Positions 4,474 through 6,791 of a stretch of 34,900 bases of DNA are shown here, piece by piece. The stretch's first letter is position 1, and every line of letters begins with the position of its first letter. The DNA is taken from positions 1-34,900 of the forward strand of contig JADGDR010000018.1 in assembly GCA_016744795.1 (NCBI GenBank), given 5' to 3'. This DNA is from Sulfurospirillum sp. GTDB lineage: Bacteria; Campylobacterota; Campylobacteria; Campylobacterales; Sulfurospirillaceae. The translations under genes were made by a program, and so were the position numbers. The notes under the pieces are model-generated. The model was not told the origin of the DNA, ran no database searches, and saw nothing but the letters and a program-made list of their open reading frames with translations.

Positions 4474-5490
4474 TTAGCCTTTTAATATAGTGTCTGTTAT
4501 CTTTTTGATACCATTTTTTGTTATGATTGATGATAGCTTTTCTGACATCGGTTTTAAGTTTATATCTTTAAGTATAGATAAAAGGTTTTTTTCATCCAAC
4601 TCATTTTGTATTTTAATAATTGATGCATTTTTTTCAACTAACTTTTTTGCATTAAAATATTGATGATTTTTTGCAGCATAAGGGTAAGGAATAAATAGAG
4701 CAGGAAGGGCATTGGCACTAAGTTCCCATAGTGTACTTGCTCCGGCACGACTTATTGCAAAATCTGCTTTTTTAAGGTAATCTAATATGTTTTTATTAAA
4801 GGCAAAACACTCTACATGTAAAGAGTTTTTTTCATAAAAATCTTTACATGTAGAGTAGTCATTTTGACCTGTTTGGTGGATTATATGGATACCTTTTTTT
4901 ATTAAAATTGGTACAGTTTTTATCGCCAGTTCATTAATAAAGTTTGCGCCTTGTGAACCACCTAAAAAAATGACTGTTTTTAACTCTTTTCTGATTCTTC
5001 GTGAGTTAAAAAATTTGTCACTTACAGGATACTCTTTGACTTTAGAGTTTTTGTCATAAGAGCTAAAAAACTCTTTTGCAAAAGGTTTTAGTAGTTTGTT
5101 TAGTGTTCCTATGACTGCATTTTGTTCATGTATATATAAAGGTGTTCTTGTAAGTAGTGAAGCAAAGGCTGCTGGAGCTGCTGAGTAACCACCTACACAA
5201 AAGACAGCTTTTACGTCGTGAGTTTTAAAAATATCTTTACATGTAAAGGCTGAAGCTAAGATGTCTTTTAGAACAAGTAGTTTTTTTAGACCACGTTTGT
5301 TTACTACTCCTTTAGAATCAAGGAAGTAGGTTTTCTCAAAGCCATTATCATTTTCAAACCATGATTTATCTTGCCCATTTTGAGAACCTATGAAAATAGG
5401 TTTTAATCCACGACTGTTTAATTCTTCTTTTAGTGCATTCGCAATGGCTAAATGACCACCAGTTCCTCCACCAGTTATTGCTACGATCAT
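4474..5490 (-). CDS. murG: UDP-GlcNAc:undecaprenyl-pyrophosphoryl-MurNAc-pentapeptide GlcNAc transferase
   Basis: A peripheral inner-membrane GT-B enzyme that adds GlcNAc to lipid I to make lipid II. The 338-residue protein has the N-terminal glycine loop GGGTGGH (7-13), HEQNAVIG near 119, FLGGSQGA near 172, and the donor-site motif SRAGASTLWELSANALPALFIPYPYA near 247-272. The length is normal. The gene carries three copies of the repeated TACATGTA palindrome; two of them form a 15-bp inverted repeat at 4810-4855. Its ATG overlaps the stop of the 37-codon gene upstream (ATGA), and the 76-residue membrane protein follows after two bases. Confidence 0.97.
   Translation of the reverse strand: MIVAITGGGTGGHLAIANALKEELNSRGLKPIFIGSQNGQDKSWFENDNGFEKTYFLDSKGVVNKRGLKKLLVLKDILASAFTCKDIFKTHDVKAVFCVGGYSAAPAAFASLLTRTPLYIHEQNAVIGTLNKLLKPFAKEFFSSYDKNSKVKEYPVSDKFFNSRRIRKELKTVIFLGGSQGANFINELAIKTVPILIKKGIHIIHQTGQNDYSTCKDFYEKNSLHVECFAFNKNILDYLKKADFAISRAGASTLWELSANALPALFIPYPYAAKNHQYFNAKKLVEKNASIIKIQNELDEKNLLSILKDINLKPMSEKLSSIITKNGIKKITDTILKG
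4810..4855. repeat. 15-bp inverted repeat within murG from two iterated palindromes
   Basis: CTCTACATGTAAAGA (4810-4824) and TCTTTACATGTAGAG (4841-4855) are perfect inverse copies, 16 bases apart, wholly inside murG coding sequence. Each contains TACATGTA. Confidence 0.85.
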
Positions 5491-5600
5491 AATTTTGCTT
5501 TCTTATTTAATTTCTCAAAATATTCGAACGAGTCCGAATATTTTTCAGACACTAAAGCACGAAGTAAACTTCTGCAAGTAAAAGAACAAATTATATTCAT
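5487..5600 (-). CDS. 37-residue small protein between ftsW and murG, coupled on both sides
   Basis: The open frame starts MNIICSFTCR and ends EKLNKKAKL. Its ATG (5598-5600) overlaps the ftsW TGA as ATGA, and its TGA (5487-5489) overlaps the murG ATG as ATGA, so ribosomes could pass from ftsW through this frame into murG. A 13-base direct repeat, AGCAAAATTATGA, occurs at both junctions exactly 110 bases apart; because of it the C-terminus KKAKL echoes the FtsW C-terminus SKRAKL. The interior holds an 8-bp inverted repeat. It may be a real small protein, or an inserted repeat that stayed open and kept coupling. No homologue is recognised. Confidence 0.5.
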   Translation of the reverse strand: MNIICSFTCRSLLRALVSEKYSDSFEYFEKLNKKAKL

Positions 5601-5610
5601 AATTTTGCTC
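5488..5610. repeat. Insertion-like segment bounded by a 13-base direct repeat
   Basis: On the minus strand AGCAAAATTATGA occurs at the ftsW end and again, 110 bases on, at the murG start. Removing one unit would rejoin ftsW and murG with a direct ATGA overlap. Between the copies, AATATTCG (5519-5526) and CGAATATT (5535-5542) form a hairpin around 8 bases. The layout resembles a small mobile or palindromic element with a target duplication, or a local duplication followed by divergence. Confidence 0.5.
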
Positions 5611-6757
5611 TTTTACTTACCATAAGTACCATGCCTATGCCAAAAGAGAGTGCTAATAGGGAACTTCCTCCATAGCTAATGAAAGGGACAGCTATTCCTT
5701 TTATGGGAGTGATTGATGTAATACCAAATGCGTTCATTAAAAAAGAGAAGACTATTAAAAGTCCGATACCTAATGAAAAAAGATAAAATACTTTGTTATT
5801 GCTTCTGCTTGATATTTTGAATATTCTATAAATAATTGTAAATATAATAAGAGTTAAAAAGGTAACTCCTAAAGCGCCAATCTCTTCTGAAATACCTGCT
5901 AAAACAAAGTCAGTATGTACTTCACTAAGGTATCCTAGTTTAAAAAGGCTATTACCTAAACCCTCCCCAAAAAGACCACCATGTTTGATTGCATTAAGTG
6001 AGTTTGATATTTGATAAGGTTCAGGGGCATTTTCTACTCGAAGTACGGATGCCATTGAGTCTGGAAACATAGAGAGAACCATGTCTTGGATTGTTGCCCA
6101 CCATGTTTTAATACGGATTATTCTTCTATCAGAACTTAAAATTGTAATAACAAATAGCATAATGGAACTCATGATGCTTATCATAAAAAGTCGTAAACTC
6201 GTACCAGCAAAAAATGCCATAAAGGCAAGCGTAAGAGCTAAAATAACTACTTGTCCTAGGTCATTTTGCATAATTGCTATAAGGTATATGACGAGTAAAA
6301 ACAGTCCAACATAAGGTAAAATTAGCATCAATTCATCTTTAAGTGGTTTTTTGTTGTCATCTAATTTTCTTGCAAAACTCCAAGCTAAAAAATATACAAA
6401 ACCAATTTTAAAAAACTCTACTGGAGCAAATGAAAAGCCAGGAAGCCTTACCCATCTTTTTGCACCACCTGCTGAGGTAACCATTGATTCTGGTAGATAG
6501 TGCATAATGCCCATCAAAAAGAGACAAGAAAAGAAGATAAAAAAACCAATCCAAACTAAATATTTATCTGGATTTAATTGTGATAAACTCCACATAATGA
6601 GAATAGAAACCATTCCAACTGTGGCTTGTCTAATGAAAAAATGTAGTTCACTATAGTTGAAAAACAGTGTAGTAAATACTGGCAATGATAATGAAAATAC
6701 GATACTTATAAATATACAAAAAGTACAAAGTATAAAAAGTGTTTTATCTGTTGCCAT
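5597..6757 (-). CDS. ftsW: SEDS peptidoglycan glycosyltransferase FtsW
   Basis: An inner-membrane divisome enzyme that polymerises lipid II together with FtsI. The 386-residue protein has about ten hydrophobic helices, the SEDS loop GGAKRWVRLPGFSFAPVEF near 99-116, QNDLGQVVI near 164, and the C-terminal signature near 355-365 (PFISYGGSS). I chose FtsW over RodA because murG follows. The ATG is preceded by AAAGAG, which overlaps a copy of the repeated palindrome (TTACATGTAA, 6766-6775). It is divergent from flgB and heads the ftsW-small ORF-murG-membrane protein unit. Confidence 0.93.
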   Translation of the reverse strand: MATDKTLFILCTFCIFISIVFSLSLPVFTTLFFNYSELHFFIRQATVGMVSILIMWSLSQLNPDKYLVWIGFFIFFSCLFLMGIMHYLPESMVTSAGGAKRWVRLPGFSFAPVEFFKIGFVYFLAWSFARKLDDNKKPLKDELMLILPYVGLFLLVIYLIAIMQNDLGQVVILALTLAFMAFFAGTSLRLFMISIMSSIMLFVITILSSDRRIIRIKTWWATIQDMVLSMFPDSMASVLRVENAPEPYQISNSLNAIKHGGLFGEGLGNSLFKLGYLSEVHTDFVLAGISEEIGALGVTFLTLIIFTIIYRIFKISSRSNNKVFYLFSLGIGLLIVFSFLMNAFGITSITPIKGIAVPFISYGGSSLLALSFGIGMVLMVSKRAKL

Positions 6758-6791
6758 AATTCTCTTTACATGTAAGGATTTATGTTATTTT

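Follow-up and report, generated by a model that had tools for sequence, protein, structure and literature searches.

A structured, probably mobile intergenic repeat at the ftsW-murG overlap of Sulfurospirillaceae

The window, that is, the whole stretch of 34,900 nucleotides analysed from a Sulfurospirillum genome, carries on its minus strand ftsW, an open frame of 37 codons, murG and both copies of a direct repeat. The nearest relatives of this genome are Sulfurospirillaceae (the S. arcachonense genus and MAGs), not Sulfurimonas. The junction between the two genes is laid out as follows.

5597-6757, minus strand: ftsW, from the list of open reading frames (PF01098, E 4e-81), ending in ATGA at 5600-5597
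5597-5619, minus strand: upstream copy X of the duplicated target at the ftsW end, TAAGTAAAAGAGCAAAATTATGA
5487-5600, minus strand: 37-codon open frame linking the ftsW stop to the murG start, with ATGA at both ends; probably no conserved protein
5574-5595, minus strand: inverted copy of the ftsW end, forming the 3' arm of hairpin H0 (5' arm at 5600-5620)
5498-5582, minus strand: full match to covariance model R2, built from other copies only (44.3 bits, E 1.4e-7)
5561-5572, minus strand: hairpin H1 of the repeat, GAAG TTTA CTTC; H1 covaries in the family
5545-5558, minus strand: conserved core of the repeat family, GCTTTAGTGnnTGA, from the alignment of copies
5517-5544, minus strand: hairpin H2 with a conserved GGACnnGTTC top, supported by covariation
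5503-5516, minus strand: conserved 3' tail of the repeat, GAGAAATTAAATAA, from the alignment of copies
5487-5509, minus strand: downstream copy of X in the murG start region, exact over AGCAAAATTATGA and imperfect past it
4474-5490, minus strand: murG, from the list of open reading frames (PF04101 and PF03033), starting in ATGA at 5490-5487

An earlier, sequence-only reading of this DNA had described a 13-base duplication at the ftsW end and the murG start. Both copies of AGCAAAATTATGA are indeed exact, at 5487-5499 and 5597-5609 of the minus strand with a spacing of 110 bp. As 0.38 matches with at most one mismatch are expected in the window, the occurrence of two exact copies at both gene ends is not due to chance. 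The direct repeat around them stretches imperfectly to about 23 bp (TAAGTAAAAGAGCAAAATTATGA). The 37-codon frame was also correctly described: it is open over 5487-5600, its ATGA overlapping the ftsW stop and its TGA overlapping the murG ATG. The hairpin named at that time, H2, is present too, with about 12 pairs at 5517-5544 rather than the 8 bp assigned to it. Several copies of TTTACATGTAAAG-like palindromes (ctttacatgtaaa) lie inside murG and near ftsW (4700-5260 and 6760-6780 of the window), and such palindromes are also present in loci L127 and L131.

The insert opens with the ftsW end copied in inverted orientation (5574-5595 against 5600-5620, 17 bp), a feature absent from the earlier description. 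It gives rise to a hairpin of about 20 bp spanning the ftsW stop, in which GTAAGTAAAAGAGCAAAATTAT pairs opposite ATAATTTGTTCTTTTACTTGC. The 141-nt junction RNA has a computed folding energy of -38.9 kcal/mol (z = -5.1), and none of 200 shuffled sequences was equally low.

A BLAST search of the insert against its own genome returned weak partial copies, the alignment of which gave a core of GCTTTAGTGnnTGAG-hairpin-GAGAAATTAAA. A covariance model built from eight copies (R1) found 12 copies in the window genome and up to 21 in other genomes. For a further model (R2), 31 copies of a subtype other than that of the window were used, with H1 included and the window copy left out. Other copies of the core, proposed earlier as something to look for, proved numerous with this model: 34 in the window genome, 63 in S. 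arcachonense DSM 9755 (G001) and up to 104, the number found in each of two genomes of genus g2, with 0-3 in the sister genera g3 and g4. The ftsW-murG copy is the sole R2 match in the window (E 1.4e-7). In a sample of the phylum, 22 of 200 genomes were positive at E <= 1e-4.

The repeat unit consists, in order, of hairpin H1, a GCTTTAGTG core, hairpin H2 and a GAGAAATTAAA tail, H2 being preceded by GTGAnTGA/GTGAGAGGAA. Subtypes were split for the structural work, as MAFFT misaligned H2 in the mixed alignment A3 and RNAalifold gave no structure. The covariation in the R2 set is 0.554, against 0.185 ± 0.018 in shuffled alignments (0 of 500 as high), and slid controls are far lower. With the two-hairpin model, 91.5% of cells are paired, and the covariation of H2 in the subtype A set is in agreement. 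In alignment A4, the base before H2 and the Shine-Dalgarno (SD) base after it covary by subtype (G/G in B1; T/A in B2), which may point to a non-canonical contact involving the SD.

Other searches were negative within their scope. A pattern search allowing two mismatches was barely above its control, and a plasmid search with the insert gave chance pieces only. A scan of viral contigs with the core pattern gave one match, which falls in a coding frame of a phage and does not represent an element. When nine element loci were compared with the 4227 Rfam models at E up to 10, no element match exceeded any gathering score; one sub-threshold HPnc0260 match occurred at L071, on the opposite strand. 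No such repeat was found in the literature on Campylobacterota, most subscription journals lying outside the coverage. Small motifs from Arcobacter sp. L, HRC-4 among them, are given in one paper (PMC6429828). Judged by its absence from Rfam and the papers searched, the repeat forms a new family of structured, mobile repeats of intergenic regions.

By analogy, the new family is closest in behaviour to the BOX elements of Streptococcus pneumoniae, which are small dispersed repeats with an RNA-type fold, transcribed in intergenic regions, with tandem modules and short expressed frames, and which likely affect co-transcribed genes (PMC3049150). Both are small, dispersed and intergenic, with a conserved fold, tandem arrays and short frames, a likeness of kind; BOX is modular (boxA-boxB-boxC), whereas the new repeat is a single two-hairpin unit, one subtype of which carries the SD of the next gene. 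The bcr1 repeats of the Bacillus cereus group measure 147-167 bp according to PMC2267715, where the title of the original paper, cited there, calls them short structured repeats with traits of mobile elements. They share with the new repeat a short, structured and mobile-like character, but are about 150 bp long and belong to other bacteria, the Rfam scan being the only sequence comparison made. Rickettsia palindromic elements are short, palindromic and stay open on joining a coding sequence; insertion within genes is frequent among them, and the peptides that they encode are conserved (PMC10969869). The new repeat is likewise short and palindromic and leaves the frame open; unlike them, its copies sit between genes and its core frame is not conserved. 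It resembles MITEs in being AT-rich, folded, non-coding, multi-copy and short, with target duplications in a minority of copies (8/103), and differs from them in its long (12-27 bp), variable duplications and perhaps in lacking terminal inverted repeats and a parent insertion sequence, neither of which was identified. REP/RAYT elements are defined (PMC3733652) by a 20-40 nt palindrome with a GTAG/GGAG or CGTC tag at the foot of the hairpin. The new repeat departs from this definition, with its 65-86 nt, two hairpins and GTGAnTGA/GTGAGAGGAA before H2.

Copies of the family occupy 5' leaders and intercistronic gaps. Of 103 copies, 82 lie just upstream of a gene start on the same strand, against 4 in the opposite-strand control, a contrast that overstates the number of events because orthologous copies of related genomes are not independent. 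In subtype B1 (GTGAGAGGAATTT...AAAGGAG), AGGAG is present in 43 of 47 copies and a start codon follows directly in 36 of 47; when every copy whose start follows directly is counted, GGAG mostly lies 7-9 nt from the start. Subtype B2 (GTGAGATGAATTT...AAAGAAG) is without SD and the start is mostly further downstream. Subtype A, to which the window copy belongs, is also without SD and is often found at the ends of genes or next to genes for tRNA or rRNA. By this pattern, an SD goes with those copies in which the leader is formed by the element itself, and B1, judged by its position, appears to have taken on the role of ribosome-binding site for the next gene. The downstream genes have mixed functions (tuf, atpA, purA, dnaK, ftsZ-like, leuB-like and ndk, names read from translations). 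With gene names read in the same way, copies are kept at grpE/dnaK across genera (G000 and G034; L113, L286) and at hemB/argF in three Sulfurospirillum genomes (L282, L283, L285); despite these kept junction copies, Sulfurospirillum proper is otherwise almost free of the repeat.

Some copies lie between tRNA genes, apparently antisense to the tRNAs (L136, L138, L141, L142, L145), and others in the rRNA operon spacers of G001, before 5S and 23S (L120). These copies could be processing sites or spacers.

In 18 of 22 Sulfurospirillaceae genomes, the ftsW-murG junction has no insert, and nearly all of these are direct ATGA or GTGA overlaps; G006 and G011 have short junctions of slightly different form. 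The sequence-only reading had arrived at a direct ATGA junction by deleting one repeat unit, and relatives do possess it. Its proposal that a palindromic element entered such a junction with a target duplication is supported by these empty sites and by the other copies of the core. The four of the 22 that have an insert are the window genome, UBA6810 (G041), and G009 and G014, two sister MAGs of another genus (g2). The window and UBA6810 inserts are of equal length and both begin with the inverted ftsW end; the g2 insert is of another subtype, with a length of 104 against 110, and in G014 consists of two identical units in tandem. The distribution of the four filled genomes on the FtsW+MurG tree requires three changes, which branches of good support make unavoidable: either the insert was gained three times, or it was gained once and then precisely lost several times. 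As the long direct repeats make precise loss possible, the choice between gain and loss at this junction is ambiguous. A parallel pattern is seen at atpH/atpA, where the element is present in G000, G002, G005 (in tandem) and G041 and in a decayed-looking version in G001; G043 and the sampled g2, g3 and g4 genomes have a short gap without it, and the upstream region of G009 differs.

A target duplication score of at least 12 was obtained for 8 of 103 copies, compared with 0.08% of controls. Long duplications occur at L055 (27 bp or more), L132 (25 bp) and L036/L038 (20 bp), and others at the window copy, L203, L135 and, by inspection, L275, which lies outside Sulfurospirillaceae. Since a clear duplication remains in just 7-10% of copies, most could be old or have spread otherwise. 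Target duplications and empty sites on the one hand, and shared old junction copies on the other, suggest that the family comprises both recent insertions and leaders that have long been kept. No terminal inverted repeats are conserved in alignments A3 and A4, a target-derived inverted copy being present at some copies only. Tandem arrays have unit lengths of 70, 74, 78, 96, 104 and 116 bp. Three to four near-identical tandem units precede genes at L112 (G000:C15:171237-171441), L154 (G015:C1:526781-527070), L207 (G015:C1:602338-602650) and L133 (G007:C82:8600-8858), and the number of units in arrays could vary between strains.

The ftsW-murG segment is most probably, with a probability of about 0.78, one subtype A copy of a dispersed, structured, mobile repeat family of about 65-86 nt. 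At the level of sequence comparison, the family membership, the empty sites, the target duplication, the recurrence at this junction in separate lineages and the open frame are all found.

Instead, the repeat may act chiefly in cis as a regulatory RNA leader, with a protein or a ligand binding to it, and may have spread through its usefulness before genes, the murG copy controlling murG translation. The location just before starts with the SD of B1 at 7-9 nt, the covarying two-hairpin fold with its invariant core, and the positions kept at grpE/dnaK and hemB/argF make this a serious minority possibility; against it stand the mixed functions of the downstream genes, the copies beside tRNA and rRNA genes, the tandem arrays, the loci that are empty in close relatives and the patchy distribution. 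It is unlikely that the insert is ancestral and was removed precisely in most lineages by recombination of its direct repeats: repeats of 13-23 bp permit such loss, and the window and UBA6810 inserts agree in length and in the inverted ftsW end at their start, but losses would be required in five congeners, in G043, in most of g2 and in all sampled g3 and g4 genomes, and the g2 insert differs in subtype and length.

Mobilization as a REP-type element by a host Y1 (RAYT) transposase would be compatible with the hairpin anatomy and with the Y1 transposase-like genes of most genomes. However, no Y1 was detected in the copy-rich G005, G009, G014 and G230, copy-poor g4 genomes have 1-2, and the presence of Y1 transposase and reverse-transcriptase genes does not follow copy number across genomes. 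As long target duplications like those at the copies are not expected from Y1 transposition, this route is considered highly improbable. The sequence-only reading had also allowed for a new small division protein, and a gene for a membrane or division protein might be supposed from a 37-codon frame that is open in the window as well as in UBA6810 and coupled by ATGA to both neighbours. Yet the frame is missing from 18 of 22 relatives, and the shared core is read in different frames (offset 2 against 0) in the window and UBA6810 inserts and in those of G009 and G014, so that no peptide is conserved. Substitutions between the window and UBA6810 copies are distributed 9/7/13 over codon positions, a Pfam search with the 37-codon product gave no match, and both ends of the peptide merely reflect copies, inverted or direct, of the ftsW end. 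That the frame encodes a small protein is very unlikely, and we give the idea hardly any credence.

If a mobile repeat has been inserted, as preferred here, the copy would have entered the ftsW end and duplicated the stretch holding the ftsW stop and the murG ribosome-binding and start region. Each ATGA would be kept owing to the duplicated target stretch, and since this stretch has ATGA and an SD-like AAAAGAG/AAGAAAG run, the insertion would restore much of the murG start context. With an insert length of 2 mod 3 and no stop in frame, ribosomes could pass from ftsW through the 37 codons to murG. The frame has 37 codons in the window and UBA6810 inserts and 35 in the g2 inserts, all inserts found at this junction having an open frame of the right length. 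In a shuffled insert of given length, the probability of an open frame is 0.046 for the window and about 0.10 for g2, falling to about 0.015 and 0.033 when the 1-in-3 length requirement is added, surviving inserts being a biased sample for such odds. With chances of about 1.5% and 3%, the earlier proposal that coupling was kept through the open frame gains some weak support and is plausible. With two to three independent open inserts, selection has probably acted to keep the relay unbroken, though this falls short of proof. We infer that translation runs through the 37-codon frame and that selection kept it open.

A more specific scheme is put forward tentatively. The repeats might be mobile leader cassettes that insert beside purine-rich SD-like runs, with the target copied both directly (X ... 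X) and inverted (X, rc(X), element, X); insertion into an operon would rebuild stop, ribosome-binding site and start, and some copies would be retained for good as the ribosome-binding site of the gene. At murG, the window and UBA6810 copies clearly show the order X, inverted X, element, X, with 17-18 bp in the inverted part; at L055, L132, L133 and L275 it is short but discernible. As hairpins upstream of copies show only modest enrichment over all copies, the signature is claimed for the murG copies only, and with less weight for these four loci. If true, it would indicate a distinct insertion mechanism; we know of no described bacterial repeat with a mechanism of this type.

The sequence-only reading was right about the insertion, and the finding is larger than was supposed there. 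The repeat can enter tight gene overlaps without breaking the stop-start relay, and the junction points to the route by which an intergenic repeat comes into a gene overlap of the cell-wall cluster with the operon left uncut. A large structured repeat family is found where the translation of many core genes begins, tuf, atpA and dnaK among them. The series of filled and empty junctions provides natural material on how mobile repeats turn into leaders and ribosome-binding sites.
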